Shown here: piece by piece, positions 902 to 37,690 of the stretch
How the letters are laid out: each line of letters begins with the position of its first letter
How positions within the stretch are numbered: the stretch's first letter is position 1
IMG/VR virus record: IMGVR_UViG_3300044956_000756
Span: 1-39,866 of that record
Length of the DNA stretch: 39,866 nucleotides
Origin: a virus
Strand: one strand, 5' to 3'
Notes under the pieces: model-generated
Database searches by the model: none
Seen by the model: the letters and a program-made list of their open reading frames with translations, nothing else
What the model was told of the DNA's origin: nothing
Position numbers and translations under genes: made by a program

Positions 902-978
902 GGTGGCTGTAGCTCAGTTGGTAGAGTCCAGGATTGTGATTCCTGTTGTCGTGGGTTCGAGTCCCATCAGCCACCCCA
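902..978 (+). tRNA. tRNA-His (GTG anticodon)
   Basis: The acceptor stem GTGGCTG (903-909) pairs with CAGCCAC (968-974). An extra G at 902 faces C975, the G-1:C73 pair typical of tRNA-His. CCA is encoded at 976-978 and the anticodon GTG lies at 936-938 in a seven-base loop closed by CAGGA/TCCTG. The D and T arms match bacterial tRNA-His. The prophage is integrated in this gene: by location, the half 3' of the crossover now comes from the phage while the 5' half is host DNA, and the joined gene looks fully functional. Confidence 0.97.
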
Positions 979-983
979 AGAAT
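931..983 (+). repeat. attL: attL core, 53-bp direct repeat in tRNA-His
   Basis: This stretch runs from the 5' side of the anticodon stem through the tRNA end and 8 bases further. It recurs at 37638-37690 with one difference (T947 versus C37654). The last 36 bases are identical. Direct repeats made of a tRNA 3' portion are the usual footprint of tyrosine-recombinase integration. Confidence 0.93.
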
Positions 984-21417: not shown

Positions 21418-22311
21418 TCAGGCCGCAGCCAACGAGGTGAATGCCTCGATCCGGTCGCCCAGGATGCGCGAATAGTCGACCATGACGTCGTGCTGCGCGT
21501 GCAGTCGGCCCTGCTCGCTGTCGTCCAGCTGGGCGAACGTGGCGGTGTCGAAGAAGGCTTCGAGCTTCTGCTTGCGCTCGTCGAGCTCACGCTTCTCTTC
21601 TACTACCCTCTTCTGGTGCGGCGGCAGATCTGCAACTGCAGCCGGTGCCGCTTCCTGCTGCTGACCGGCGCCGTCGCCAGGTGCGCAGCCCGACTCGCGG
21701 ACCATGTCGACGTGCTGCTGCAGGCGTTCCTGCTCGGCAGGAGAGATACTCGGCAGCGGAGCCGGGCCTGTGGCCTTCGTCCCATCGTGATAGGTTTTCG
21801 TCTCGACCACGTCGACCATCATCCAGTCCTCGGCCAGCACGTCGGACTGCGACGGCGCCCAGCCCATCAGGATGTCGTCCTGAGCAGTTTTCAGGATCAG
21901 GTACGGCCGCACGGTCGCGCAGCCGCCGTTCTGCTCCGCATGAGCACGCGTATGCTCGTTCCAGAACGATGCCGCAGGAAGATCGAGCCGGCCAGCGCCG
22001 AGACAGACCCACTGGTTTGCGCCGTTCCACCCTGCGCGCGCCACGCGCATCCCACGCTTCAGCGCTTCCACAGCGAGGCCGAAAGTCATGGCGGTGCACG
22101 GGCGATATGCAGCGTCGAACTGCTCCTTCGGCGACCAGCTGACGTAGCCCGCGCGGCCCGGCACATTCGGCTTGCCGCCGTCCTGGTACTCGACCAGGTA
22201 GCCCTCGTCCGCGCCGTTCTCGTCCGCCGGCAGCGTCCAGCCGCGGAACAGGTTGTAGGCCGCCCGGCTCATGGCCTCGGCGATGACGATCTTGGTTCCG
22301 ATGAATCGCAT
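21418..22311 (-). CDS. Tad2-like (DUF2829) anti-Thoeris fusion protein
   Basis: Three parts are visible in 297 aa. Residues 1-70 (FIGTK, RGWTLPADENGADEGY, SWSPKEQF) match a domain often found next to DUF2829 in phages. Residues about 75-169 fit DUF2829: MTFGLAVEALKRGMRVARAGW, a Pro-Tyr-Leu-Ile-Leu-Lys strand, and W-x-P-S-Q-x-D-x-L-A-x-D-W at 151-163. Characterised DUF2829 proteins (Tad2) bind the cyclic ADP-ribose-type signal of Thoeris immunity. Residues 231-291 form a helical hairpin resembling phage proteins labelled crAss001_48-related. ATG 22311 follows GGGAG. The gene lies 13 bases after an Acb2-like gene. The domain call is strong; signal-binding activity is inferred. Confidence 0.8.
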   Translation of the reverse strand: MRFIGTKIVIAEAMSRAAYNLFRGWTLPADENGADEGYLVEYQDGGKPNVPGRAGYVSWSPKEQFDAAYRPCTAMTFGLAVEALKRGMRVARAGWNGANQWVCLGAGRLDLPAASFWNEHTRAHAEQNGGCATVRPYLILKTAQDDILMGWAPSQSDVLAEDWMMVDVVETKTYHDGTKATGPAPLPSISPAEQERLQQHVDMVRESGCAPGDGAGQQQEAAPAAVADLPPHQKRVVEEKRELDERKQKLEAFFDTATFAQLDDSEQGRLHAQHDVMVDYSRILGDRIEAFTSLAAA

Positions 22312-22665: not shown

Positions 22666-23721
22666 TTACAGGCTTTCTTCCAAGACTCGCGCCACTTTCG
22701 CGCCACCGAAACCCACTTTTTCGCCGATCACATCAGCGGCGCGGGCGGCCGTGTCGAGGTTCTTTTCCAGGTAGCCCATCGTGGTGGCGTGGCTCTTGTG
22801 GCGCATGACCCGTTGGATCGTCTGGATCGGCACGCCGGCCTCGGACAGGAGCGTGGCGAACGTGCCGCGCAGCCGGTGCGGCGTGATGCCCTTGAGCGAA
22901 CATTCCTTGTTGGCCCGGCGCATGGCCTGGCGCGCGAACCCGGGGGCGAAGGCTTGGCCGCTCGGCTTGGCCACGATCAGGCCATCCACCTGGCGCAGCG
23001 GCGCGAGGTGCTCGCGCAACCAGGCCGGCATCGGTACCGGCTCGGCCTCCCTACCCTTCGTGATGCCCGGAGTGTAGGTCGAGCGCTCCCAGTCCATCCA
23101 TTCCCAGCGCGCCGACGCCGCCTCGCTCTCGCGCAGGCCCAGCCCGAACATCAGACGCACCGCCGTGCCGACGTCCGGCGCCCGGGCCGTTGCCGCGTCG
23201 ACGGCATCGAACCAGGTCCTGGCTACGTCGATCGGCAGGAAGGGCCGCGGCTTCTTCTGCACCTTGAGCATCTTCACGCGCCAGGGCGACGCCGCCAGAA
23301 TCTCGCGCTTCACCGCCCACATGGTCAGCAGCTTCAGGATCCGCAGCCAGTGGTTCGCGCTCGATGGGGCGTGCGTCTCGAGGTGCCGGCCGCGCGCCAG
23401 CTCGACATCCTTCGTTGTGATCTCGCCGATCGGCTTGGCGCCCAGGTCGTACATGTGCAGCCGGCGGAACGTCTCGACGCTGCGGATGTGCGAAGCGCTG
23501 GCTACTGGCCTGTGGACAACTACCCACATGCCGGCCAGCTCGTCCAGCGTAGGCACCGGCTCGCCACCATTGGCGCGCACCACCGCGGCGTCGTACTGCC
23601 GCTTGGCGATTTCCTCTGCCTTGGTCTTGCTGGCCAGCCGGGTGCTGCGCTGCACGCGCACTCCGTCGACCTGGAAGCGGAAGTGCCAGATGCCGCTCTT
23701 CTTGAAGAGGGTCGCGCTCAT
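22666..23721 (-). CDS. Second tyrosine recombinase, in the replication operon
   Basis: A 351-aa phage integrase-family protein with all catalytic residues in place: Arg197 (GLRESE), Lys222, His282 and Arg285 (HRLRGTF), His308 (RHKSH) and Tyr317 (MGYLEK). An N-terminal arm-type domain and a SAM-like core-binding domain precede them. It begins by an ATGA overlap with the helicase gene and so is co-expressed with replication genes, far from either att site. It is not related closely to the attR-side integrase. It could resolve replication products or be the remnant integrase of another phage lineage. Confidence 0.9.
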   Translation of the reverse strand: MSATLFKKSGIWHFRFQVDGVRVQRSTRLASKTKAEEIAKRQYDAAVVRANGGEPVPTLDELAGMWVVVHRPVASASHIRSVETFRRLHMYDLGAKPIGEITTKDVELARGRHLETHAPSSANHWLRILKLLTMWAVKREILAASPWRVKMLKVQKKPRPFLPIDVARTWFDAVDAATARAPDVGTAVRLMFGLGLRESEAASARWEWMDWERSTYTPGITKGREAEPVPMPAWLREHLAPLRQVDGLIVAKPSGQAFAPGFARQAMRRANKECSLKGITPHRLRGTFATLLSEAGVPIQTIQRVMRHKSHATTMGYLEKNLDTAARAADVIGEKVGFGGAKVARVLEESL

Positions 23722-25076: not shown

Positions 25077-26089
25077 GCTGCATCTTTCGATTCGAAGATT
25101 TTCTGGGCCTGCTTGCCCAGCGTGGTGAGGAAGTAGGCGCCGTTGCCGTCGATCGCCCACAGCTTCAGGTAGTTACCCTCGACGTACTTGCGGAAGGCCT
25201 GGCGCCAGTCCTTGTAGCGCTTCGTCTCGCCGGTGCCACCAGGGAGGAAACGGCGCCGGAACTCCACCCAGGCCAGGGCAATGAAGTCCTGCGGCAGGCC
25301 GGCGCTCTCGGCATAGCGCCACAGCGGAGCGTAGTCGCGCAGCGGCCTCTCGCCCTTCGTGGTGCAGTCCTCCAGGAAGGTCTGCAGGGCAACCGCCCCA
25401 GCTTTCGACCTGGTCGGCTGGGGGCCCCCGTCAGGGGGTTTGGGGGAAGTTGTTAACTGTCCCTGTCCCTCTCCCTGTCCCTTGGATGTGTTTTCACTAG
25501 GGACAACGCCGACTTGTCCCTCTAGTTGCCGAGCCGTGTCACCTGAAACAGACTCGCCTTGTCCCAGCGACATCATTGGTTTGTCGCCAGGGACAGGTAG
25601 CGGTTGTCCCACGGGACAGCCCGCAGCGAACCACGCATCGAACTCGGGGAACGGAACGTTTGCACCAGGATGTCGCTCGTTGTGCTTCTTGATCCGCGAG
25701 CATTCGGTCTTCAGGCGCTGGCGGAGTTTGGCCAGCCAGGCCTCGTTCGCCTTTCCGGCGACGACAGTGTGATAGAGGCGGCCGTCCGAGCACTTCACCC
25801 ACCCGCGCAGCGCGCCGGCCCGCACCTTCTGCCATTCCTTTACCACGCGGCCGTAACCCGCGTACTGCGCCAGGATCTTGTCGTCGTCTGGGAGACTTGC
25901 GGCCGGTACCTGGTGCCAGGATGCGCACCACAGCAGCACCGCGCAGCGGAACTCGTCGGCTTCGGAGGTCACGGACAGGTCGCTGTCGCGCAAGCGCACG
26001 ACGTCGAGCGGCATGAAGGCAAAGTCCTGCAGGTTGCAGTCGACTGGGGTGAGCGGTGCTGGCAGCGTCGTCAAGTCAGGCGCCTTCAT
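25073..26089 (-). CDS. DUF1376-type replication initiator candidate
   Basis: The 338-aa product has an N-terminal DUF1376-like part (FAFMPLDVVRLRDSDL, EFRCAVLLWCASW, then a Lys/Arg-rich segment), a low-complexity Gly/Gln/Pro middle and a C-terminal part with a KRYKDWRQAFRKYV helix, typical of phage replication proteins placed just upstream of a helicase. It takes the position of lambda O or P22 gp18. The low-complexity middle coincides with a cluster of TGTCCC/GGGACA hexamers. Initiator function is inferred from position. Confidence 0.75.
   Translation of the reverse strand: MKAPDLTTLPAPLTPVDCNLQDFAFMPLDVVRLRDSDLSVTSEADEFRCAVLLWCASWHQVPAASLPDDDKILAQYAGYGRVVKEWQKVRAGALRGWVKCSDGRLYHTVVAGKANEAWLAKLRQRLKTECSRIKKHNERHPGANVPFPEFDAWFAAGCPVGQPLPVPGDKPMMSLGQGESVSGDTARQLEGQVGVVPSENTSKGQGEGQGQLTTSPKPPDGGPQPTRSKAGAVALQTFLEDCTTKGERPLRDYAPLWRYAESAGLPQDFIALAWVEFRRRFLPGGTGETKRYKDWRQAFRKYVEGNYLKLWAIDGNGAYFLTTLGKQAQKIFESKDAA
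25458..25618. repeat. Cluster of nine TGTCCC/GGGACA hexamers, possible phage origin
   Basis: TGTCCC occurs at 25458, 25464, 25476, 25515, 25560 and 25605; its complement GGGACA at 25500, 25590 and 25613: nine copies in 161 bases. Two of them form a near-palindrome CTAGGGACAA-N7-TTGTCCCTCTAG (25497-25525). The cluster lies inside the putative initiator gene, as lambda ori lies inside O. An alternative is a slippage-derived repeat that only encodes a flexible linker. Confidence 0.5.
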
Positions 26090-26487
26090 GCTGCTGCCTG
26101 CTGAATCGAACCGAAGAGCGCGGCGACCGTCCAGTCGCGATGACGGAACGCAGGCCAGCTACTCACAATCGCCTGGTGCGGCACGTGCACGCGAAGGTCC
26201 GCGCGCGGGAGCTCTCGAGCGAGCTCGATCGGCACGGCGGTTGATGCACCAGGCGCCGGGCCGTGATGCCACATGTAGCATTTTCCCTGGTATTTCTCCA
26301 GCCGGACTCGAACACGGTGTGCGCGGCCTTCGCTCTCGAGGCGCTCGAGGCGTAGCCGAACCATGGACGGCGAGCATCCTAATTCGCGCGCCAGCTCGTC
26401 AACCAGGTGTGAGGAGGATTGAAGCGATTTTTCGATGGCCGAGAGCAGTTGCTCGGCCGGCAATTTGTTTTCGGTCGGGGGCGTCAT
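26086..26487 (-). CDS. Winged-helix type DNA-binding protein, 133 aa
   Basis: Residues about 10-60 form a winged-helix pattern (LLSAIEKSLQSSSHLVDELA, then a recognition helix SPSMVRLRLERLESEG and a basic wing). The C-terminal half is not recognised. ATG 26487 is preferred; upstream codons overlap the tiny gene at 26484-26564. It is joined by ATGA to the replication-initiator gene, so it may control or assist early replication. Confidence 0.7.
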   Translation of the reverse strand: MTPPTENKLPAEQLLSAIEKSLQSSSHLVDELARELGCSPSMVRLRLERLESEGRAHRVRVRLEKYQGKCYMWHHGPAPGASTAVPIELARELPRADLRVHVPHQAIVSSWPAFRHRDWTVAALFGSIQQAAA

Positions 26488-26564
26488 GGTGGCGAGACCT
26501 CCACGCACGGGCCACCGGCCGCCGTGTGACAGCTGGGCTGGTGAAAAATGGTTACCTGGTTCAT
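26484..26564 (-). CDS. Tiny tightly coupled early gene, 26 aa
   Basis: ATG 26564 shares one base with the previous stop (TGATG) and has GGAGG a few bases upstream. Its stop overlaps the next ATG as ATGA. The product is neutral, with two Cys and two His residues (HQPSC, PCVEV). Coupling on both sides suggests real translation, if only as a ribosome relay. The function is unknown. Confidence 0.45.
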   Translation of the reverse strand: MNQVTIFHQPSCHTAAGGPCVEVSPP

Positions 26565-26746
26565 CAGCGCTCCTCCGCGATGTCGACGGCCCGGCGCAGA
26601 TCCTGGCGGGCACGGTACTCGGCGCGCTGCTTGGTCACGTCGCCGCGGTGGGCGATCGCTTCCTTGTCGGCTTTGCGCCAGATGACGGCCTGCCGGCAGA
26701 TGTGCTGCTGGTCGTGCTGTGAAGGCTCGGTTGCCTGTTCGTTCAT
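26564..26746 (-). CDS. Small early protein, 60 aa
   Basis: A Gln/Arg-rich, charged helical product (MNEQATEPSQHDQQ start, ending DLRRAVDIAEER). ATG 26746 is preferred over ATG 26761 because TGAGG lies at good distance before it. It lies in the cro-led operon between two other short genes. No family is recognised. Confidence 0.55.
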   Translation of the reverse strand: MNEQATEPSQHDQQHICRQAVIWRKADKEAIAHRGDVTKQRAEYRARQDLRRAVDIAEER

Positions 26747-26794
26747 TGGTGTGTACCTCATGATGCTGCGGTGTGAATCGTCCATGCGCCGGCC

Positions 26795-27052
26795 TCAAAG
26801 ACGCATGCGCAGCTGGCCGCCTGCGCCGTAGTTCAGGCGGCCGGGCAGCGACAGGGCCATGTTCTGGCCATGTCCGGCCCTTCCTGGATACGACTGCTGA
26901 CGTTTACGCTTCTGCTCTGCGATCCAGGCTTTTGCAAGGGTGCGGAGCTGGGAGCTGTGCTTGACGTCGGCGGCGCCGCATTCTTGGTCGAACTCGACGA
27001 ACTCGTCGGCGTTCAGCAGGGCCTTGACGGGGATATTGCGGGGGGACTTCAT
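26795..27052 (-). CDS. Small basic early protein, 85 aa
   Basis: ATG 27052 follows a clear AGGAG site. Residues 1-50 (MKSPRNIPVKALLNADEFVEFDQEC, then SSQLRTLAKAW) resemble short ribbon-helix-helix DNA-binding proteins, with a Lys/Arg-rich following segment. It is the first gene after cro in the leftward operon, the place of lambda cII. A regulatory role is likely but not certain. Confidence 0.65.
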   Translation of the reverse strand: MKSPRNIPVKALLNADEFVEFDQECGAADVKHSSQLRTLAKAWIAEQKRKRQQSYPGRAGHGQNMALSLPGRLNYGAGGQLRMRL

Positions 27053-27101
27053 GGGGTGGTTCTCCTAGTGGTGGCGTTTCAGGACTTCGGGTGGTTCAGG
27101 A

Positions 27102-27332
27102 TCAAGTGGTTGTAGCTGGGCGGTGGGTGGCCTCGTGGAACATGTCGGCGCAATCTTGAGGAGATACAGCGCCTCCGGTTTCGCGTTCAATCTGCAGGGC
27201 ATAGTCCAGGGTGACCCGGGTAATGCCACGCACCCACTGGCTAACGAGGCCTTGCGACGCCGGTGGGGCAAGCTTCGAGCCAAAGTCACTTTGACTTTGG
27301 CCAACATCCTTCAGGTATTTGTCGAGGTGCAT
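27102..27332 (-). CDS. Cro-like (YdaS/Cro-type) repressor
   Basis: The 76-aa protein has a helix-turn-helix (QSDFGSKLAPPASQGLVSQW) followed by the TLDYALQIERETGG segment of Cro/YdaS-type regulators. It is divergent from the cI gene and heads the replication operon, as cro does in lambda. ATG 27332 has AAGGGCGG upstream; a TTG start at 27356 would place the N-terminus in operator O1 and is less likely. It probably binds the operators at 27352-27394 and favours lytic growth. Confidence 0.82.
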   Translation of the reverse strand: MHLDKYLKDVGQSQSDFGSKLAPPASQGLVSQWVRGITRVTLDYALQIERETGGAVSPQDCADMFHEATHRPATTT

Positions 27333-27351
27333 GTCTTTGTCCGCCCTTATG

Positions 27352-27400
27352 AGCAATGCTCTTAAATTCAGGATTCTACAGTAATAGCAATGCTTTTCAA
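27352..27400 (-). promoter_or_regulatory. cro promoter with operators O1 and O2
   Basis: On the minus strand, TTGAAA (27400-27395) and TAGAAT (27378-27373) are spaced by 16 bases. Operator core AGCATTGCT (minus strand) lies at 27386-27394 in the spacer (O2) and again at 27352-27360 near the transcript start (O1), flanked by AT-rich arms. A repressor bound here would block leftward early transcription. No equally clear promoter for cI was found. Confidence 0.72.
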
Positions 27401-27441
27401 GATATGCAGCGTAAAAAAAGCCGTGCTAATAAAATGACCAG

Positions 27442-28209
27442 ATGAAACGACGAGAACTTACGGCTGAGGAGAGGGAAGAAGCTGAGCGCCTTGCGCAGGC
27501 TTGGGAGAAGTACCGTGCTGAGAACAAGGGAGCGACGCAAGCTTGGCTCGCCGCTGAAGCCGGCCTAGGAACCCAGGGAGCGGTCAGCCAGTACCTGCGA
27601 GGTGCGATTCCTCTTAACGTTGAGGCACTTGCCGCTATGTGTCGCGTCATGCAGGTGGACCCGAACGCCATCAGCCCGCGCCTGATGTCAATTGTTCTTA
27701 TGCCTCCAGCTGACCCAGGACCTGATGGAAACTATGGGCTGCCCCCTGGCACCTTCATGAAGGTACGTGTCGTGGACGAAGACGACCCGAGCATGGTGCG
27801 GATCCCAAAGGTTAGACTTCGCCTTTCAGCAGGGATCAATGGATTTGAAGTTGAGCCAGAGCGTTACGATGGCTCAACCACCATGGTGCCAGCTGACTGG
27901 ATGATGCGAAATGGATACTACAAGGACAACCTGATTTCGATTGTCGTGAAGGGCGAAAGCATGGAGCCAACCTTGTACGAGGGAGACTTGGTTGTCATTA
28001 ACACAGCCGATAAAAAAATGGTCGACGGGTATGTCTATGCATTCAATTACGAAGGCGAACCGGTAGTAAAGCGCCTAGAGCGCGACGGCGGTCAGTGGTG
28101 GTTAAAATCCGACAATCAAGATCAACGGAAATACGGTAGAAAGATGTGTCGTGGCGATGCGTGTCTCATTATTGGACGCGTTGTTAGGAAGGAAAGTGAA
28201 AGGCTTTAA
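27442..28209 (+). CDS. CI-like phage repressor with S24 peptidase domain
   Basis: A 255-aa repressor with an N-terminal helix-turn-helix (WLAAEAGLGTQGAVSQYLRG, about residues 35-54) and a C-terminal LexA/S24 domain. The self-cleavage site is Ala130-Gly131, the catalytic Ser173 (GESMEPT) and Lys210 (VVKRL). RecA-stimulated self-cleavage would induce the prophage on DNA damage. The ATG at 27442 has no obvious ribosome site. The gene leads a three-gene operon of somewhat lower GC than the flanking genes. Confidence 0.93.
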   Translation: MKRRELTAEEREEAERLAQAWEKYRAENKGATQAWLAAEAGLGTQGAVSQYLRGAIPLNVEALAAMCRVMQVDPNAISPRLMSIVLMPPADPGPDGNYGLPPGTFMKVRVVDEDDPSMVRIPKVRLRLSAGINGFEVEPERYDGSTTMVPADWMMRNGYYKDNLISIVVKGESMEPTLYEGDLVVINTADKKMVDGYVYAFNYEGEPVVKRLERDGGQWWLKSDNQDQRKYGRKMCRGDACLIIGRVVRKESERL

Positions 28210-28478
28210 TGCTGTATTCGGAATTACGTTTGCGCGATGTACGCATGGCAGTAGTGTTGGTGGATAACGGGCAGCTTTACGACGACGGGCTAATCGCAAA
28301 GTTACAAACCCAACTTGCCATGCCAGTGATGCTGGTGACGCGTAATGAGTCGAACCTGACAGGTGCGAGTGCTAAGGCACAGTTTGATGCGGAGCCATAT
28401 TTATACGCGTTCCTCGCGTTAGACGAGATTGATTGGCTAGAGCTACCTGAACAAGAAGAATCTGAACTACCTTTTTGA
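28209..28478 (+). CDS. Unknown 89-aa protein directly after cI
   Basis: ATG 28209 shares a base with the cI stop (TAATG), so it is translated with the repressor and made in the lysogen. The product has a mixed alpha/beta pattern (MAVVLVDNGQLYDDGLIAKLQ, PVMLVTRNE) and an acidic C-terminus. I do not recognise the family. Its location corresponds to rexA in lambda. Confidence 0.78.
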   Translation: MLYSELRLRDVRMAVVLVDNGQLYDDGLIAKLQTQLAMPVMLVTRNESNLTGASAKAQFDAEPYLYAFLALDEIDWLELPEQEESELPF

Positions 28479-28488
28479 TGGAGTAACT

Positions 28489-29079
28489 GTGAATCTCTTT
28501 GAAGGCGCGAGACGGATCGCTTTAGTCATTTCAGCGATAGCAGTGATAGGCACCGTTGCAGGAGCATTTATTAATAAGCCTTATGTCGTCGCGAAATATC
28601 GAGTAGCTGACTTCAATGCGCCTGCCGTAAAGAGTGAGGAATGCAGGATTTCAACGGATAAAGTCCAGTACGAGACACTTCAAACTCCATCCGGAATCAC
28701 CTATAACCTCAACCTTTGTTTTGCTGGGCAGTTCTGGGAGAAGGAAAAAGAATACTTCATTCCCTACAAGCAGACACCCGACGGCGTTTGGGGCACATCA
28801 AAGTATTCCACTGAAGCGCAAGAATATGTTGATAATTATGTTCAATATATATTCAAGCTCTCCCCCACCGATTTCGCGGAAATAGAAGAAGAATATTCCT
28901 CGAAAAAGTGGTTCGAGGTAGGTCATGCGATAGGCTATTTACTTGGAGGCCTCGCCATATTCTGGACCCTCGTTTGGACTATTGGGTGGATCGTTCGCGG
29001 CTTCATGGGTATCCCTCGAGGCCAGGATCGACGCGCTGCCACGAACCCATCAACGGCCACCACTGTGGCTACAAACTAG
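28489..29079 (+). CDS. Two-segment membrane protein in rex-like position
   Basis: The 196-aa product starts at GTG 28489 and has hydrophobic segments at about residues 9-30 and 144-170, with a soluble loop of about 110 residues containing two Cys. It follows the repressor operon and precedes a strong terminator, so it should be expressed during lysogeny. Location matches rexB of lambda, a membrane exclusion protein, but no sequence similarity is claimed. Superinfection exclusion is a hypothesis. Confidence 0.78.
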   Translation: MNLFEGARRIALVISAIAVIGTVAGAFINKPYVVAKYRVADFNAPAVKSEECRISTDKVQYETLQTPSGITYNLNLCFAGQFWEKEKEYFIPYKQTPDGVWGTSKYSTEAQEYVDNYVQYIFKLSPTDFAEIEEEYSSKKWFEVGHAIGYLLGGLAIFWTLVWTIGWIVRGFMGIPRGQDRRAATNPSTATTVATN

Positions 29080-29099
29080 CAGCAGAATTCATCAGTCTC

Positions 29100-29124
29100 A
29101 AGCCCGCCTCGTGCGGGCTTTTTT
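29100..29124 (+). terminator. Terminator of the cI operon
   Basis: AAGCCCGC and GCGGGCTT (about 29100-29120) form a stem with a 5-base loop followed by a T run to 29124. It separates lysogenic transcription from the PRTRC operon promoter. Confidence 0.9.
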
Positions 29125-29188
29125 GCATTCTAGCAACAGTCTCATCGTGCACCTAGACACGAGGCCAGCAGAAACCCACAAAAATATA

Positions 29189-29227
29189 AGCATTGCTCTT
29201 GATCTTTTTAAAAGCATAGCTAATAAT
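29189..29227 (+). promoter_or_regulatory. pL-like promoter of the PRTRC operon, operators O3 and O4
   Basis: TTGATC (29199-29204) and AATAAT (29222-29227, spacing 17) form a plausible promoter. AGCATTGCT (29189-29197, O3) abuts the -35 element and AGCATAGCT (29213-29221, O4, one mismatch) abuts the -10. Both have AT-rich arms like O1 and O2 at the cro promoter. This strongly suggests repression by CI or Cro, equivalent to lambda oL/pL. Confidence 0.72.
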
Positions 29228-29276
29228 GAGCTCCATCATCCCAGCTCGTCTTGCGAGCCAACGAATGGAGCCCACC

Positions 29277-29426
29277 GTGAAACCCTTCCTGATCAAAGTC
29301 CGTACTGCCACCGCCTGCTTCACGTTTAGCGCCCTCGCGGCGTCCAGCACTGCCGCTGCAGTCCTGACGGCTGAAGTGCTGGGCGACCAGGCCTACGGCA
29401 TCACCGTCGTCGCCGGAGTGCGCTGA
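29277..29426 (+). CDS. Small first gene of the PRTRC operon, 49 aa
   Basis: GTG 29277 is favoured because ATGGAG lies 6-7 bases upstream; in-frame ATG 29265 and 29226 are alternatives. The product begins MKPFLIKVRTATACFTF and has a small-residue-rich helix (LAASSTAAAVLTAE) and a C-terminal strand. Similar short proteins occur near PRTRC genes as far as I recall. Its stop overlaps the next ATG. It does not look like an arginine-rich N-type antiterminator. Confidence 0.62.
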   Translation: MKPFLIKVRTATACFTFSALAASSTAAAVLTAEVLGDQAYGITVVAGVR

Positions 29427-29626
29427 TGGCCACTACTACCCAACTCACCCGCGTGATCGCCCTCGCCGTTCAGGACGCCACCGCGCAGCACCCGAACGAC
29501 GTTGAGCGCCGCGCTACCACCTTCACGCAGATGCTCTGCGGCGCGCTGCAGGGCCTCGACTACCCCGATGCGGCCAAGGCGATCCGGGTCATGCTGGGTG
29601 CCCGCGCGCCCGCCGACGGAGCCTGA
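29426..29626 (+). CDS. Small PRTRC-operon protein, 66 aa
   Basis: ATG 29426 overlaps the preceding stop (TGATG). The product is helical (LTRVIALAVQDATAQHP, DAAKAIRVML) and has no recognised domain. Coupled position between the first gene and the next short gene argues for real expression. Confidence 0.62.
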   Translation: MATTTQLTRVIALAVQDATAQHPNDVERRATTFTQMLCGALQGLDYPDAAKAIRVMLGARAPADGA

Positions 29627-29627
29627 C

Positions 29628-29819
29628 ATGGCCCGCGTCGAACCGGATCGCGCAGCGCTCGAGTTTGCCCGCCACCTCCTGGGCTCGAAGGACTCGCTCG
29701 ACACCATGCTCAAGAACCCGACGCTCAAGGCGGCGCTGACCGCCGCGGCCCGCCGGCACATGTGGCGCCGTGCCCAGTTCGACCCGAAGAAGCTCCAGGC
29801 CAACGACCACGACGATTAA
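29628..29819 (+). CDS. Small basic PRTRC-operon protein, 63 aa
   Basis: ATG 29628 follows the previous stop by one base. The product is charged and helical (RAALEFARHLLGSKDSLDTML, then RRHMWRRAQFDPKKL). It has no recognised domain. It lies 40 bases before PRTRC gene E. It stands where other PRTRC cassettes may carry parB but is far too short to be ParB. Confidence 0.62.
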   Translation: MARVEPDRAALEFARHLLGSKDSLDTMLKNPTLKAALTAAARRHMWRRAQFDPKKLQANDHDD

Positions 29820-29859
29820 CCACCGCCCTCCCCGGGCACCCAACCACGAGGACCACTCT

Positions 29860-30552
29860 ATGTTCAGCACCCTCCATGAGCTCGCGAAGCAGGCGACGCT
29901 GATGATCACCGTCGCCGCCGAGGGCGACGACCAGCTGCGCGTCAACGTGACGCCGATGCCGTTCGACACGAAGGCGAAGTCGAAGCTGCCGCAGCCGCTG
30001 TCGCTGCTGGCCACGCCGACCGAGTTCGATGCCGACTTCATCGCGGCGCTGTCGACCTGGCAGGCGCCGAAGCGCACGCTGATCCAACAGGCCCAGGATG
30101 CCGCCGGCGGCGCGCCCGCCGCTTCGGCGCCGGCCCTGCCCGCGCCGAAGGCTGAAGCCAAGACCGACAGCAAGACGGACAAGCCGCGCAAGGCCCGCGC
30201 AGGCAAAGGCGGCGACGACGACAAGAGAGGCGACGCTGTACCGGCTGCAGCCGCTGCCGCCGGCGAGGCCGCCGCTGCGGCCGACCAGGTGATGGACGCA
30301 ACGGCTCAACCGGGTACCGGCGAGCAGCCGGTGGCAGGCGGCGACGATGCGGGCACCGCCACCAGCGCCGCCGATGTGCCGGATCAGGATTCCCAGCCAA
30401 CCGCCGGCGCCGGCGGTGACGTCCCGGCCGGCGAGGCGCAGGACGGCGCAGCACCTGCGGGCGAGCCTGTCGCCGCGGCCGCTGGCGAACCTGCCGCCGA
30501 CGCTCCCACAGGCGACGAGGCGGTGGACAAGTTCACCCTGGACCTGTTCTAA
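29860..30552 (+). CDS. PRTRC system protein E
   Basis: The 230-aa product matches PRTRC-E: an N-terminal conserved domain (MFSTLHELAKQATLMITV, LPQPLSLLATPTEFD, about residues 1-80), a long Ala/Pro/Gly/Asp-rich middle and the conserved C-terminal end DKFTLDLF. The first conserved Met is used; an earlier frame extension is a shadow of the preceding gene. PRTRC-E has no known biochemical role. The low-complexity middle suggests a flexible linker. Confidence 0.85.
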   Translation: MFSTLHELAKQATLMITVAAEGDDQLRVNVTPMPFDTKAKSKLPQPLSLLATPTEFDADFIAALSTWQAPKRTLIQQAQDAAGGAPAASAPALPAPKAEAKTDSKTDKPRKARAGKGGDDDKRGDAVPAAAAAAGEAAAAADQVMDATAQPGTGEQPVAGGDDAGTATSAADVPDQDSQPTAGAGGDVPAGEAQDGAAPAGEPVAAAAGEPAADAPTGDEAVDKFTLDLF

Positions 30553-30564
30553 GCGGAGGCCGAC

Positions 30565-30966
30565 ATGCAAATTGACAACCTCATCCGCGAATTCCGCTAC
30601 AACGGCGTGGCCCTGGCCGACCCGAGCGCGGCGCTCAGCCTGCCCCAGGTGCGCGACTTCTACGCCAACGTCTACCCGGAGATCACCAGCGCCGATATCG
30701 AGGGGCCGGAACAGGTCGGCGCCAAGGCCATCTACACCTTCCGGCGCGCCGTCGGCACGAAGGGTGCAGGCGCGCGAGAGGCCGCACTGCTGCGCCTGCG
30801 CACCGTTGGCCGCCTGGACCCAGGCGCCAGGCCGGCCCACATCATCACCGCCGAGCAGGCGCGCGCCCCACTGGCCCAGCAGCTGGCCAAGATCCTCGAG
30901 CAGGCACGGCGCGCCACCGGCCCGCGTTGCCTCGCCCCATCCGTCAACCAGGTGGTCCTGCCGTGA
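30565..30966 (+). CDS. PRTRC system protein C, ubiquitin-like, with long tail
   Basis: Residues 1-67 match the PRTRC-C / prokaryotic ubiquitin-like family: EFRYNGVALADPSAALS, VRDFYANVYPEI, then YTFRRAVGTKG ending at Gly67. Many family members, as I recall, end at or near this glycine; here a further 66 basic, Arg/Ala-rich residues follow. Together with the E1-, E2- and JAB-like genes this suggests a ubiquitin-like modifier, possibly made as a precursor. ATG 30565 has GGAGG upstream. The stop overlaps the next GTG start. Confidence 0.85.
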   Translation: MQIDNLIREFRYNGVALADPSAALSLPQVRDFYANVYPEITSADIEGPEQVGAKAIYTFRRAVGTKGAGAREAALLRLRTVGRLDPGARPAHIITAEQARAPLAQQLAKILEQARRATGPRCLAPSVNQVVLP

Positions 30967-32030
30967 CTGCGATGCTGCCCGCCTCCATCCTGGCCCTGCC
31001 GGCGCTCGCGCCCGAAGTTCCGGCGCAGTACGTCCTCCCAGGCGAGGACCAGCTGGCAGTGCCGCTGACGATCGCCCTGCTCGAGGCCGGCGTGATCAGC
31101 GATGCCATGCTCCGCACGCCGCGCAACGAGCTGCTGGTGGATGTGTTTGGTGCCCAAGAGAAGCGGCTGGCCGAGCGCGCGCTCGCGCACTGGTGGACGA
31201 AGCTGATTCGCGCGCGGCCGTGCAAGTTCTTCCGCTGGGAACTGCACGTACAGCAGTTAGAGGACACCGGCCACGGCTACGACAAGACGAACACGGCCTG
31301 GTTCTGCTTCACGCGCATGGGACTCGGCAACAACTACCCGCCGCGGTTCGCCCTGGCGAAAGGCGTCGAGAAGCTCGAGCGCCTGCTGGAAGGCTTCGGG
31401 CAGACCGTGCTGGCGGTCTTGTACGACGCCTGCCGGCTCCTGCCAGATGCGCAAACGCCATGGTCTGCAGTGAGCTGGGCGCAATACGGCTACTGGAACG
31501 ACAGCAGCGACGACGTAGAGCTGCTCGAGAATCGCCGGATCGACGGCGGCTGGGACACCGTCCAGCAGCTGGTGGAGAACGAACAAGTCATAACCCGAGC
31601 GATGTTCTTCGCCGAGATGCCCGAGTGGGTATGCGCACCGAAGCGCGTACGGTCGCGCGTCGAGCTCGAGGCGGCGTCCACGACGGCATTCGCGCGCCAG
31701 GTGGTCGAGGTGTGCGATGGCCTGCACGCCCTGGTCAACAGCGCCGCTTTCATCCTCACGCCAGCCGACAAGGGAACCTATCGATGCGGCCGCGAGACGA
31801 TCGACGGCGCCATGATCCTGCTGTGGAAACAGTTCGATGTCGTCGGCGACACGATCGACGACTATCTCAACGACCTCGGCAACTGCGGCGAGTACTGCGA
31901 CTTCATCGATGCCAACCCGGTGCCGATGACCGCGGCCGGCATCCGCGACTTCATGACCAAGACCGAGCAGGCGATCCAGGTCGCCGTGCTGACCGAAAAG
32001 CTTGTTCTGCTGCTGGGAGATGAATTTTGA
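30963..32030 (+). CDS. PRTRC system protein F
   Basis: The 355-aa product matches PRTRC-F: DQLAVPLTIALLEAGVI, WWTKLIRARPCKFFRW, and WSAVSWAQYGYWND motifs. GTG 30963 overlaps the stop of gene C (GTGA), so translation is coupled; ATG 30972 is an alternative. The protein is soluble and has no recognised catalytic motif. Its conservation in PRTRC cassettes suggests a required but unknown part of the system. Confidence 0.85.
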   Translation: MTAMLPASILALPALAPEVPAQYVLPGEDQLAVPLTIALLEAGVISDAMLRTPRNELLVDVFGAQEKRLAERALAHWWTKLIRARPCKFFRWELHVQQLEDTGHGYDKTNTAWFCFTRMGLGNNYPPRFALAKGVEKLERLLEGFGQTVLAVLYDACRLLPDAQTPWSAVSWAQYGYWNDSSDDVELLENRRIDGGWDTVQQLVENEQVITRAMFFAEMPEWVCAPKRVRSRVELEAASTTAFARQVVEVCDGLHALVNSAAFILTPADKGTYRCGRETIDGAMILLWKQFDVVGDTIDDYLNDLGNCGEYCDFIDANPVPMTAAGIRDFMTKTEQAIQVAVLTEKLVLLLGDEF

Positions 32031-32770
32031 GCCTGCACACCGTGAAAATCGTGAGCGAAGGCGAGCGCGTCCTGCGCCTGGTCGGCGCCGTGCTGATGTA
32101 CCAGTCGAACGTCGGCGACGTCTACGCAACCTCGCACCCAGTCCTGTCGGACGCCGTGCACCCGGGCCGCCAGGTGATCGGCGCCGGCGTGCCGCTGTCG
32201 AAGGGCGCGCTGGCGAACTTCGCGAATGCCGTCGGCGCCGCTACGGCCTTCACCGGTTTCCTGCCGGACAACCTGCTGTTCAGCTCGCCGAACGTGATCG
32301 CCTGGTGGACGCCGGCCGCGGTGCGGATGACTTGGTTCAAGGCAGCAAGGGACAGCAAGCTGGAAGGCAACGGCATGGCCGCGCACCCGGCGCTCGTGTT
32401 CGTGGCCACACCCAGCGACTGGTTCGTGTTCGCGCTGCGCGAGGACGCGCGCCCGGGGCCGCACACGCGCCTGTACCACTCCCCGCACTTCAACGTGTGG
32501 GACGGCGGCCGGATCTGCACCGGCAACGTGGAACTGCCGCCGACCTTCGGCGCGGAGGTGATCGACCGCTACGAGCGCGCCTTCTTCCGTAGCCATTTCA
32601 CGCACCCGAACCGCAACAACGCTGTGAAGTGCAAAGGCGGCATGCAGCAGCTCTGGCGCGCCCAGCTAGCCAGCGCCGACCCGGGCGCGATGCAGCGCGC
32701 GCTCGTTGCTTCAAAAGAAACCCTGCAGGAAGCGATCACCCGCATCGCCGCCCGCGCCACAACCAATTAA
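32027..32770 (+). CDS. PRTRC system protein B, E2-like
   Basis: The 247-aa product matches PRTRC-B, which belongs to the prokaryotic E2 family D as I recall it. The candidate catalytic cysteine is Cys164 (GGRICTGN), preceded by the HSPHFNVWDG segment expected around an E2 active site. It starts at TTG 32027 within the stop of F (TTGA). Such an E2-like protein would take a ubiquitin-like protein from an E1 and pass it to a target. Activity is inferred. Confidence 0.85.
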   Translation: MSLHTVKIVSEGERVLRLVGAVLMYQSNVGDVYATSHPVLSDAVHPGRQVIGAGVPLSKGALANFANAVGAATAFTGFLPDNLLFSSPNVIAWWTPAAVRMTWFKAARDSKLEGNGMAAHPALVFVATPSDWFVFALREDARPGPHTRLYHSPHFNVWDGGRICTGNVELPPTFGAEVIDRYERAFFRSHFTHPNRNNAVKCKGGMQQLWRAQLASADPGAMQRALVASKETLQEAITRIAARATTN

Positions 32771-32784
32771 TAGAAGAGGACGAC

Positions 32785-33558
32785 ATGAAAAAGCAAGAAT
32801 TTGCCAACCAGTTCAGCGAGCTGCTCGACATCACCCGCGCATCGTTCAACACCTTCCTCGAGACGGCTGAAGCCGTCCTGCGCGAGCAGCGCCCCCTGCC
32901 GCTGGCCGTCGACGAGGAAACCGCGCCGGCCGACCAGCTGCAGATGGACATGGCCCTGCTGGCCGCGGCGCCGATCGCCGCCGTGCCGCGCTACGCGCCA
33001 TTCCACCCGCTGCAGGAAAACGGCCACCGCTTCCTGCTGGCGTCCGACGGCCTGCACCTCGAGGTGCGTCGACCCTGGCTGCACTACATCCAGCCCCTGG
33101 CCAAGCACGCCGCCGTGGCCATCCCGTTCGGCGAGATGACGAAGAAGTGCGAGCTGGACTTCGGCAGCATCGGAAGCGCGCTGGACCTGATGAAGGAATT
33201 CGCTGCGAAGGCGAAGACGGACGCGCCGATCGAGGCCGCGGCCAGCCTGCTGTGGGACCACGTGAAGAAGTCTTGGCGGATCGAATACCCGAAGATCATC
33301 GGCAAGGCCACGACCGGCAGCATCCAGTACGAGCAGGTAGTGCCCGGCCCGGATGAGAGCCTGGCGATCGACCTGCACAGCCACGGGCACCTCGGCGCGT
33401 TCTTCAGCAGCACCGACAACGAGGACGACCGCGGCTCGGTGAAGATCGCCGGCGTGTTCGGCGACCTGGACAAGGATCAGCCGACGGTGGCGTTCCGCAT
33501 GTGCGTGCTCGGGCTCTACATCGACATCCCGGTGCCGGCGTCGAAGATCTTCGGGTGA
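32785..33558 (+). CDS. PRTRC system protein A, JAB/JAMM peptidase
   Basis: The 257-aa product has an N-terminal helical region and a C-terminal JAB domain with the complete zinc motif H-x-H-x7-S-x2-D: His198, His200, Ser208, Asp211. JAB/JAMM enzymes remove ubiquitin-like proteins or trim their precursors. ATG 32785 follows AGAGGA. It lies between the E2-like and E1-like genes. The intact motif favours a working metallopeptidase. Confidence 0.9.
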   Translation: MKKQEFANQFSELLDITRASFNTFLETAEAVLREQRPLPLAVDEETAPADQLQMDMALLAAAPIAAVPRYAPFHPLQENGHRFLLASDGLHLEVRRPWLHYIQPLAKHAAVAIPFGEMTKKCELDFGSIGSALDLMKEFAAKAKTDAPIEAAASLLWDHVKKSWRIEYPKIIGKATTGSIQYEQVVPGPDESLAIDLHSHGHLGAFFSSTDNEDDRGSVKIAGVFGDLDKDQPTVAFRMCVLGLYIDIPVPASKIFG

Positions 33559-33562
33559 TCGC

Positions 33563-34339
33563 ATGCCGCATATCACGCCCCCCACCATGCTGAGCCATAG
33601 GGTGCGAATCGCCCTGATCGGCTGCGGCGGCAACGGCTCGCAGATGCTCACCGGCCTGGCCAGGCTGAACCACGCCATCACGGCGCTGGGCCACCCTGGC
33701 CTGCACGTGAAGGTGTTCGACCCGGACACGGTCAGCGAGGCGAACATGGGCCGCCAGCTGTTCGGCGCCTTCGACGTCGGCGCGAGCAAGGCGCACGTGC
33801 TGGTCAACCGGATCAATGCCTTCTTTGGGTTGGACTGGGAGGCCGTGCACGACCGCTACAACGACAGCTCGATGCAGTTCGGCATGGCGATCGCGTGCGT
33901 CGACAGCGCCCGGGCCCGCCACGAGATCCACGCGAAGCTGCAGCGCTATGGCGTGCACTACCTGATGGACCTGGGTAACCGCGCGGCCGACGGCCAGGTC
34001 CTGTTCGGCGAGTTATTCACAGGCCGGGCCGGGCTGGGCGCGCCGGCGAACAGTGCGCCGCTGCCGAGCCCGTACGCCGTGCTGCCGGAGCTGGTCGACC
34101 TGCAGGCGGTCGAGGACGACACCCCCAGCTGCGGCCTGGCCGAGGCGCTCGAGCGGCAGGAGCTGTTCGTGAACCAGTCGATCGTGACGCCGGCGCTGTC
34201 GATCCTGTGGGAGTTCTTCCGCAAGGGGCAGCTGACCTGGCACGGCGCCTTCGTGAACCTGCGCACCGGCAGCATGCGTCCGCTGAACGTGCGCGAGCCG
34301 GCCAGGGCGCCGGCGGCGGATCTCCCGGCGGCCGCATGA
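33563..34339 (+). CDS. PRTRC system ThiF-type E1-like enzyme
   Basis: The 258-aa product is a ThiF/E1 superfamily protein: nucleotide loop GCGGNG (residues 20-25), acidic strand end VFDPD, the arginine-glutamine pair Arg64-Gln65, Lys76 and Asp114 of the adenylation site, and a candidate catalytic Cys190 (DDTPSCGL). It would adenylate the C-terminal glycine of a ubiquitin-like protein and form a thioester. Starts 5 bases after the JAB gene. Its stop overlaps the next ATG. Confidence 0.9.
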   Translation: MPHITPPTMLSHRVRIALIGCGGNGSQMLTGLARLNHAITALGHPGLHVKVFDPDTVSEANMGRQLFGAFDVGASKAHVLVNRINAFFGLDWEAVHDRYNDSSMQFGMAIACVDSARARHEIHAKLQRYGVHYLMDLGNRAADGQVLFGELFTGRAGLGAPANSAPLPSPYAVLPELVDLQAVEDDTPSCGLAEALERQELFVNQSIVTPALSILWEFFRKGQLTWHGAFVNLRTGSMRPLNVREPARAPAADLPAAA

Positions 34340-35554: not shown

Positions 35555-35787
35555 GCGGATACCTTACAGCTGACGAGTTGGCCGAGCTGGTCGACTGCAA
35601 ACCGAACCAGCGCACCAGGATGGTCACCTGGCTTCGGCAAAGGAAGTGGAAATTTGAGGTGGGTTCAACCGGGCTTCCCAGGGTCGCGCGAGCCTACCAC
35701 GATAGGATGATGGGTATTACCGATGAGCCGAAACGACAAAAATATGCGGACGAACCGAACCTCAAAGCCTTCGCCGGCGCCCACTAA
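35551..35787 (+). CDS. DUF4224 protein, excisionase-like candidate
   Basis: The 78-aa product (MSGYLTADELAELVDCKPNQ start) fits DUF4224, small winged-helix or MerR-like proteins usually found directly before a phage integrase. The gene overlaps the integrase start by 65 bases. A role as excisionase or directionality factor is likely by position and fold; it is not demonstrated. Confidence 0.78.
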   Translation: MSGYLTADELAELVDCKPNQRTRMVTWLRQRKWKFEVGSTGLPRVARAYHDRMMGITDEPKRQKYADEPNLKAFAGAH

Positions 35788-37042
35788 AGAGAAGACGGGG
35801 ATCGACAGGCTTTACAAGAGGACAGGCGTCAAGAAGGTGTCGTGGTATTACCAATACCCGGACGGCCGGAACGAAACCGTGGCAACGGCGCCGGTCGGCA
35901 ACAAAGAAGAGATCCGCAAGGCGGACATTGTCGCGAAGCGCAAGGCGATCGACATCCAGCAAGGGAGGATCATCGCCGGATCGGTCGCCGAGCTGATCGA
36001 CCGCTTCAAGACGGAGGAAGACCCGAAACACTACCTGGACCAGTCGAAAGAGGGTCTCGCGGTCAGGAACGGTACCTACGCGAACCTGATCAAGTTCTTC
36101 GGCCAGATGGCGCCGAATTCGCTCAAGACGATCCACGGTTATCAGTACGTCGAGGCGCGGGCGGCCGACGGCGCGCCGGCGAAGGCCTGGAAGGAGCTCT
36201 ACACCTTCTCGACCATCTGCAAGAAGGCGATCCGGTGGGGCGTGATGGAGGCGAACCCGTTCGTGGACATGGACACAGATGTGCTGGAAAAGGACGTGCG
36301 CACCGTCACCAGGTCGCAGATCGTCCGGTTCTATCTGTGGAGCCAGCGGCAGGACAACCGGGTTGTGCGCCTGATGGGCTGCATGGCCCTCTTCACCTAT
36401 CTGACCGGGTTCCGGACGGCGGAAGTGCGACCGATGCTGAAGACGGGATGCTCGCGCGAGGGCGTGACGGTGACGGGCGCCAAGCGGAAGCGTGGCGAGG
36501 CCGAGGTGCTGAAACTGCGGGAATGGTCGCCACGCCTGCGCATGGTGGTCAAGCGGATCGAGCAGGCCCAGCAGCACATGCCGTCGGTGCCGCCCGAGAC
36601 CGCGCAGACCATGGCGCGCATCGCAATCGCGATCGCAAAGGGCGAGACGGCAAAGGCGGCGGCCGCGGCGGCCGGCATGAAGGAGTCGACCTATTACTAC
36701 TGGGTCGCGCGGGTGAGGAAGGACGAGCGGGTCAGGCCGAAGGAGTCGGTCTACATGTTCCCGGCTGCCGGCGGGAAATGCTACACGAAGGGCGGCCTGT
36801 CGTCGTCCTGGCAGGAGGCCATGCTCGCCTACGTGAAGACGCTGGATCCGGAGGTGACCGAGAAGACGCTCACCCAGCACGCCGAGTACTTCGCCCAGCT
36901 GGACATCCGCCCGGCCGCGATCACGACCAAGCTGCGAAAACGGGATGCTGACGCCTACGACTTCGCCGCCCACGCGAACCCATCAACAACCCACAGATAT
37001 TATGATAGGCGCACCGAAAAGCGAGCAAGGTCTACCGAATGA
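35723..37042 (+). CDS. int: Tyrosine integrase with an internal HTH-like insertion
   Basis: Site-specific recombinase of 439 aa, the nearest recombinase to attR and so the probable enzyme for tRNA-His integration. Catalytic Arg231 (TGFRTAEV) and a Lys-rich beta hairpin (KRKRG) are present. Between this box and the second box lies an extra segment (about residues 290-335) like a Trp-containing helix-turn-helix (GETAKAAAAAAGMKESTYYYW). In the second box Arg396 is kept but the His is replaced by Leu393. His417 and the Tyr426/Tyr427 nucleophile region (THRYYDRR) are present. Start ATG 35723 overlaps DUF4224; ATG 35744 is an alternative. Confidence 0.9.
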   Translation: MSRNDKNMRTNRTSKPSPAPTKEKTGIDRLYKRTGVKKVSWYYQYPDGRNETVATAPVGNKEEIRKADIVAKRKAIDIQQGRIIAGSVAELIDRFKTEEDPKHYLDQSKEGLAVRNGTYANLIKFFGQMAPNSLKTIHGYQYVEARAADGAPAKAWKELYTFSTICKKAIRWGVMEANPFVDMDTDVLEKDVRTVTRSQIVRFYLWSQRQDNRVVRLMGCMALFTYLTGFRTAEVRPMLKTGCSREGVTVTGAKRKRGEAEVLKLREWSPRLRMVVKRIEQAQQHMPSVPPETAQTMARIAIAIAKGETAKAAAAAAGMKESTYYYWVARVRKDERVRPKESVYMFPAAGGKCYTKGGLSSSWQEAMLAYVKTLDPEVTEKTLTQHAEYFAQLDIRPAAITTKLRKRDADAYDFAAHANPSTTHRYYDRRTEKRARSTE

Positions 37043-37637: not shown

Positions 37638-37690
37638 GGATTGTGATTCCTGTCGTCGTGGGTTCGAGTCCCATCAGCCACCCCAAGAAT
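37638..37690 (+). repeat. attR: attR core, 53-bp copy of tRNA-His 3' part
   Basis: Matches 931-983 except C at 37654 where attL has T947. The sequence upstream is not a tRNA 5' half, so this copy is a fragment and host sequence continues after it. Confidence 0.93.

Follow-up and report, generated by a model that had tools for sequence, protein, structure and literature searches.

The IMG/VR virus record IMGVR_UViG_3300044956_000756, analysed here over its whole 39,866 bases (the window), carries a complete PRTRC-type gene cassette, E-C-F-B-A-ThiF, at 29860-34339, with all six genes on the plus strand in that order and neighbouring genes overlapping or sitting within 15 bases of each other. 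Cassettes of this kind are common in the early operon of phages of this group, and they almost never occur together with the recombination genes RecT and YqaJ, which most cassette-less sister phages carry, in the cassette's own slot at every locus that also gave a repressor match. We tentatively favour the view that it works early in lytic growth as a ubiquitin-like (Ubl) conjugation module, whose targets would most likely be DNA replication or recombination proteins and which may do part of the work of a Red-type module.

Evidence for this exclusion comes from two sets of records. RecT was found in none of 49 cassette-bearing records and YqaJ in one (L056); among 26 cassette-less sister records, RecT was matched in 20 (17 above the profile cut-off), YqaJ in 19 and either gene in 22. 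Fisher's test gave p 6e-14 per record and p 3e-11 per near-relative cluster (1/37 versus 20/24), the latter correcting for near relatives and leaving deeper kinship uncorrected. The cassette-bearing set comprised 47 of 64 viral loci, the window and Burkholderia phage BgVeeders33, with L059, L061 and 15 further loci left out. The cassette-less set comprised 25 of 39 loci recovered with the replication gene, plus L173, recovered with the repressor's neighbour gene; the cassette was judged absent from the fetched flanks. Left out here were the cassette-bearing L174 and L175 and a further 12 loci; contigs shorter than 16 kb account for 11 of these, and tblastn detects RecT in four of the 12.

The two modules also share a location. 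Repressor and RecT were both matched in 15 cassette-less loci, and in each of them RecT occupies the strand and the repressor side that the cassette takes in L174. Searches with the window repressor recovered L167, L168 and the identical pair L170/L171, which carry RecT and YqaJ on the pL side (RecT of L168 scoring below cut-off), and L169, which ends soon after the repressor and has neither gene. No member of the RecT, Erf or Rad52-type Pfam families was matched among 76 open reading frames (ORFs) from 28 cassette-bearing loci (at least 150 amino acids, plus strand, picked by hand from 276); these comprise integrases and scattered others, the sole YqaJ being that of L056. Two of the 76 match the reverse transcriptase family RVT_1 (alignment A5).

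The identity of the cassette is confirmed by profile searches, which the preliminary description, made from the sequence alone, had proposed: all six proteins score above their NCBIfam cut-offs (Table 1). Pfam agrees, with Prok_Ub for C, Prok-E2_D for B, DUF2016 plus Prok-JAB for A and ThiF for ThiF; PRTRC_E fell narrowly below its Pfam cut-off (25.7 vs 26), and F had no Pfam match. PF00899 was the sole Pfam match of ThiF, with no match to a rhodanese domain. The gene order read earlier is correct. The span had been drawn from 29277, and the part ahead of the cassette (29277-29819) proved to consist of three small ORFs that are not cassette genes. One of these (29628-29819) weakly matches PHROG 6236; as to an N-like antiterminator, neither it nor its neighbour (29426-29626) gave an informative profile match, boxA/boxB not having been searched for.

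Table 1. Features of the window. For cassette genes, scores are in bits against the curated NCBIfam cut-off, A and F having been scored with longer upstream starts.
Feature	Position	Strand	Evidence or detail
tRNA-His	903-978		ARAGORN
attL	931..983	+	53-nt direct repeat over the 3' part of tRNA-His, 98% identical to 37638-37690
OR-like operators	27352-27360, 27386-27394		AGCAATGCT; within 27352..27394, with leftward promoter-like site 27400-27373
S24-type phage repressor (CI-like)	27442..28209	+	PF00717, E 4.6e-20; same strand as cassette
Terminator-like hairpin	29100..29120	+	8 pairs plus T run; ahead of cassette promoter
pL-like region	29189..29227	+	operator-like AGCATTGCT 29189-29197; one-mismatch copy 29213-29221; promoter-like TTGATC-17-AATAAT
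Three small leading ORFs	29277-29426, 29426-29626, 29628-29819	+	not cassette genes
PRTRC E	29860..30552	+	TIGR03741, 67.1 vs 37.95
PRTRC C	30565..30966	+	TIGR03738, 96.8 vs 45.95; PF14454
PRTRC F	30963..32030	+	TIGR03742, 90 vs 58.4; GTG start overlaps C stop
PRTRC B, E2-like	32027..32770	+	TIGR03737, 186.5 vs 131.45; PF14460
PRTRC A, DUF2016 + JAB/JAMM metallopeptidase	32785..33558	+	TIGR03735, 199.4 vs 101.8; PF09436, PF14464
PRTRC ThiF, E1-like adenylating enzyme	33563..34339	+	TIGR03736, 310.4 vs 144.75; PF00899
Tyrosine integrase	35723..37042	+	helix-turn-helix-like insert (about residues 299-342); adjoins attR
attR	37638..37690	+	second copy of the 53-nt repeat, near integrase

Turning to the control of the cassette, its surroundings have the features of a lambda-type pL operon: it lies on the repressor's strand, behind a terminator-like hairpin and an operator-like site in the promoter region, and the integrase stands at the end. 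The succession of repressor, small genes, terminator, pL, early genes and int matches the arrangement in lambda. The pL-type placement proposed earlier therefore stands; the claim that the cassette fills the whole operon does not, given the additional ORFs between 34339 and the integrase. The exact word AGCAWTGCT occurs three times in the 39.9 kb (27352, 27386 and 29189), each time flanking the repressor gene; shuffled sequences held a mean of 0.32 copies, with three copies in 1 of 100 shuffles. One-mismatch copies are at chance level across the window (11 vs mean 8.6). On the pL side, a rightward promoter-like site (29199-29227) is located at the operator-like sites. Since operator-like sites coincide with promoter-like sites on both sides of the repressor gene, the repressor probably governs the replication side as well as the cassette. 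Among 40 relatives, 12 have at least five 10-mers common to the sequence that precedes the repressor and the gap between repressor and E (0.2-2.7 expected), overlapping words being counted separately and the window itself having two; eight remain without the copies L070, L071 and L072 and without L082 (2.7 expected). The window's own operator word recurs in L052. The scan gave 5 terminator-like sites, fewer than the mean of 8.8 in shuffled sequences, and the hairpin at 29100..29120 was judged on its own shape.

The catalytic residues of the cassette are conserved. Counts are over rows of the phage and prophage alignments and include near-duplicates, with L059, L061, L086 and the plasmids set aside. 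In A, His198, His200, Ser208 and Asp211 are invariant (83/83 rows), as are Arg96 and Trp98, which we read as the conserved Arg and Trp of the JAB N-terminal domain in PMC1779556. B retains Cys164 and His193 in 81/81 rows; ThiF retains Cys190 in 81/81, and Gly20, Gly22, Gly23 and Gly25 together with Asn61, Arg64, Gln65 and Lys76 in 83/83. Glu139 and Asp299 of F are likewise invariant (alignment A3). The key residues of A, B and ThiF had thus been named correctly at the outset. Ratios of nonsynonymous to synonymous substitution (dN/dS) of 0.06-0.49 were obtained across all six genes in nine pairs, the highest for E; with every gene below 0.5 and the catalytic residues intact, silent cargo, the condition named beforehand as a refutation, is rejected. 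In a Burkholderia prophage (L082:7472-8092) the F frame stops early; its close relative L053 is full length.

E and F were modelled with AlphaFold. The E model has an ordered N-terminal domain (about residues 1-82), a long low-confidence linker and a hydrophobic C-terminal motif, TLDLF. A TLDLF-like end is present in 26/65 sequences, and the pattern hydrophobic-[DN]-hydrophobic-hydrophobic in 54/65; its resemblance to the beta-clamp motif serves as a lead only. The F model is mostly alpha-helical (predicted local distance difference test, pLDDT, 87.3). Neither F nor E matched a PDB structure at E <= 0.001, and for F this absence says nothing on fold novelty. A second structural comparison of F gave an uninformative best Z of 4.0 (root-mean-square deviation 3.0 over 80 residues), a viral structure library gave one match, to an uncharacterised phage protein, and a PDB sequence-profile search gave two, to unrelated-looking proteins (E 0.015 and 0.74).

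The C protein of the phages looks, from its sequence, like a pro-ubiquitin. In the window its Ubl domain ends at Gly67 (FRRAVGTKG) and is followed by a tail of 66 amino acids. The domain ends in GTKG in 80/80 phage rows that hold the domain end, and in FRRAVGTKG in 78; most phage C proteins continue for 57-100 residues past the Gly. C is 67-70 amino acids long at 12 loci (11 if L080, which duplicates L046, is dropped), with a stop 0-3 codons past the Gly, and in 12/12 the same kind of tail is encoded by a separate ORF directly after or overlapping C. A quick 68-row tree, in which C is fused in 57 rows and split in 11, implies at least five changes between the two forms and at least ten changes of tail type. 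The three main tail types, sorted by patterns of our own, show no BLAST match to one another at E 1e-3. Encoded either apart or fused with the joint exactly behind the Gly, the tails count as independent proteins, and fusion at that point leads us to expect a peptidase cut. Eukaryotic ubiquitin is likewise fused to ribosomal proteins. For the peptidase, A is the obvious candidate given the plasmid cassettes: in the six with no A (JAB) gene adjoining ThiF (L091, L095, L096, L098, L099 and L100), C ends exactly at the Gly, and it continues past it in 6/8 with A, a small comparison uncorrected for kinship (Fisher p 0.0097). C precursors with exchangeable tails offer a natural pro-ubiquitin set for the study of JAB maturation.

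The cassette is widespread. A ThiF search returned 64 distinct IMG/VR loci and 20 loci in the genome collection, of which 17 are titled Burkholderiales, two Rudaea and one Novosphingobium. All six genes were found by tblastn in 57/64 viral and 18/20 genome loci, some elements being common to both sets; those short of six genes are truncated contigs, divergent loci and plasmid-like ones. Together with BgVeeders33, which also has six genes, this supplies the survey of other phages that had been proposed. Counted regardless of phage or non-phage setting, TIGR03736 scored above cut-off in 2/369 class-level genomes (one being the centre genome) and 19/392 family-level genomes. In a quick ThiF tree of 84 rows, supported by the Shimodaira-Hasegawa-like approximate likelihood-ratio test (SH-aLRT) alone, 65 phage rows form one branch (97), with three divergent viral rows outside; the nearest row to the window is L007 (98% identical). 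Three terminase profiles matched 28/49 viral records without overlap (E <= 0.001, some weak), in a survey of those three profiles that leaves the window's best match, phrog_3717, outside. Given this lack of overlap, the cassette moves between phages of different packaging type.

From these observations we infer a sequence of events, from repressor binding through conjugation and its targets to the replacement of recombination functions, each biochemical step of which is put forward conditionally. The prophage repressor, on the upstream operators, would hold the cassette off, and induction or infection would switch it on. The JAB protein A would then cleave the C precursor after Gly67 (GTKG), releasing a small tail protein along with the Ubl; ThiF would adenylate Gly67 of C, and the E2-like B would transfer the Ubl to target proteins, from which A may also strip it. 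E and F could act as adaptors or ligase-like factors. The targets would most likely be host or phage DNA replication or recombination proteins, whose tagging would take over part of a Red module's task of protecting or recombining phage DNA. Such targets are favoured since the module stands in the slot of RecT and YqaJ and almost never occurs together with them; in some plasmids the cassette has dnaN, ssb or helicase genes nearby, which weakly favours DNA metabolism as well. The preliminary description had proposed that host or virion proteins are modified during lytic growth. That interpretation is partly supported, and the near-exclusion points rather to DNA recombination or replication. In a stronger form, about which we are more doubtful, a large group of temperate phages gave up its RecT/exonuclease module and redirects host replication or recombination proteins at an early point of the lytic cycle by means of a JAB-matured Ubl cassette instead.

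Several observations weigh against replacement of the Red-type module. Locus L056 (1909-6395) has both the cassette and YqaJ, with Band_7 and RtcB genes between YqaJ and E, and 4/26 cassette-less records contain neither RecT nor YqaJ. The slot can hold unrelated modules: L161, a cassette-less locus found by its integrase, has no RecT or YqaJ there and instead a PemK-type gene and unknown ORFs. Whole-record searches covered RecT and YqaJ, not other annealing proteins or Gam. As to the remaining steps, 28/40 relatives have fewer than five shared operator words, two plasmid cassettes (L088 and L097) have A and yet a C that already ends at the Gly, and the adaptor roles of E and F are guesses, the fold of F not being known and E having no significant structural match. 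The PemK/MazF-type toxin gene of L161 (3959-4366) lies in the gap between repressor and an integrase 85% identical to its counterpart.

The strongest rival is anti-host action in the same slot, with the cassette as an early counter-defence module that places the Ubl on host defence or housekeeping proteins in the lytic phase, without a link to recombination, and shares the slot through the early promoter only. The early pL location and likely repressor control fit such a role, as do the other cargo in the slot of L161 and the Tad2-like anti-defence domain that the window phage encodes elsewhere. We regard it as unlikely: the near-absence of RecT and YqaJ from 49 records spanning three terminase profiles is unexpected for freely added cargo, and neighbours such as dnaN, ssb or helicase genes place some plasmid cassettes in a DNA-metabolism setting.

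Less probable still is a prophage-encoded antiviral defence, in which the Ubl would tag proteins of competing phages, whether of the virion or not, as in CBASS-linked and Bil-type systems. ThiF weakly matches PADLOC E1-E2 models (best E 9.1e-9), and none of E, C, F, B and A has a PADLOC match. Ubl-like conjugation does help anti-phage defence in CBASS, according to the part of PMC10097602 drawn on here. However, the slot is otherwise held by recombination genes and is not an accessory site, and the operator-like sites imply lytic control, so that one expects to find the cassette switched off in a quiet lysogen; this expectation makes defence against other phages less likely.

The relation to plasmids also bears on the name of the cassette, which comes from ParB, a gene missing from the phage form. 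In 14 plasmid cassettes sampled from the spread of 394 plasmid records, a ParB gene lies upstream in 12 (other ORFs intervene in L099), and both cassettes that lack it are from Bacteroidota. A ParB profile scored above cut-off in 1/50 phage-type records, the plasmid-like L061 (the window record lay outside this profile search), and pMOL28 ParB gave no tblastn match in the window. The ParB profile TIGR03734 passes in 5/18 host genomes, and within the fetched cassette flanks ParB was matched by tblastn only at L086. The view of PRTRC cassettes as mainly a matter of plasmids and genomic islands thus holds for the type of cassette and gives way in its distribution, given how common the ParB-less form is in this phage group. 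That the cassette is plasmid-maintenance cargo in transit, linked to partition and with no phage role, is very improbable and was already disfavoured: it would agree with the upstream ParB of the plasmids and with the discussion of PRTRC genes among plasmid partition functions in the part of PMC7466150 consulted, but ParB passes in related records only at L061, the 65 phage ThiF rows form one branch, and all six genes are under purifying selection. Two IMG/VR 'virus' records, L061 and L059, have ParB near a PRTRC ThiF and are probably pieces of plasmids or integrative elements; L061 is likely a plasmid misclassified as a virus, and L059 is suspected of being one.

The remainder of the window is that of a temperate phage. 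Given the att repeats towards its two ends, with attL in tRNA-His, the record very probably contains an entire prophage, about 36.7 kb long and flanked by host DNA. The minus strand encodes lysis, tail fibre, DNA ejection, head closure, capsid, scaffold, portal and terminase proteins, DnaB helicase and a replication protein; the plus strand carries the S24 repressor, two small genes, the terminator-like hairpin, the cassette and the integrase. A plasmid wrongly classed as a virus was considered and rejected on account of the att repeats and the terminase, portal, capsid and lysis genes. The element had been called a temperate P22-like prophage. Its temperate nature is borne out by the att repeats and the S24 repressor, and PHROG matches to portal, scaffold, head closure and DNA ejection proteins fit a P22-like head.

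Three further genes drew attention. Profile searches gave no direct match of the att-proximal integrase to integrase models; it aligns along its length with L024:13180-14277 (E 5e-32, 27%), which matches PF00589 above cut-off and is missing the helix-turn-helix/transposase-like insert. A second tyrosine recombinase (PF00589, phrog_1) lies at 22666-23721 on the minus strand, in the replication region beside DnaB. Also on the minus strand, the protein encoded at 21418-22311 combines a crAss001_48 domain with a Tad2-like one (Thoeris anti-defence), which makes this a likely anti-defence gene.

Among known systems, the plasmid PRTRC cassette, as in pMOL28 of Cupriavidus metallidurans, has the same order E-C-F-B-A-ThiF and the same six profile families. 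The phage form differs in having no ParB gene, a ThiF branch of its own, a longer A, C tails of 57-100 amino acids in most loci and its likely regulation by a phage repressor. E1, E2 and JAB domains also occur in CBASS Cap2/Cap3 and in further anti-phage Ubl systems; the window differs from Cap2/Cap3 in its separate E1 and E2 proteins and its own Ubl, and its PADLOC matches are confined to weak E1 ones, with no specific matches of several cassette proteins. Pseudomonas plasmids bear PRTRC genes as well (PMC7466150, in the part consulted). No stated function for PRTRC cassettes was found in the literature searched, and no title or abstract opening among the matches listed concerned the phage form, most subscription journals lying outside the coverage.

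An isolated phage that carries the cassette is BgVeeders33 (OK665841.1), a Burkholderia phage from sewage with all six genes in order at 25958-30435, annotated as hypothetical proteins and a 'dinucleotide-utilizing enzyme'. It has Mu-like tail genes and is described as a myovirus in the portion of PMC9658991 used here; ThiF, ubiquitin and PRTRC are absent from the main text of the two BgVeeders33 papers found. A described operon type close in content is Type 6d of Iyer, Burroughs and Aravind 2006 (PMC1779556), whose named holders, in the sections consulted, are bacteria. All five features given there are present in the window: a Ubl protein with a C-terminal Gly, a JAB protein with JAB-N, an E1-like protein lacking a rhodanese domain, an E2-like protein whose conserved Cys is followed by a His, and an alpha-helical protein in which charged residues are conserved. 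In contrast to Type 6d as described in those sections, the cassette of the window forms an early operon of a phage, includes an E gene and encodes a C with exchangeable tails past the Gly. Finally, the RecT/YqaJ (Red-type) module of the cassette-less sisters (L167, L168, L182 and others, which share the repressor or replication gene) stands on the same repressor side and strand but belongs to different protein families, and any functional equivalence would follow from the exclusion only. With a defined slot, operator-like control and a known alternative occupant, the function of the phage cassette is directly testable; if the replacement is true, Ubl tagging would here serve a bacterial virus in DNA metabolism, and not cells in defence.

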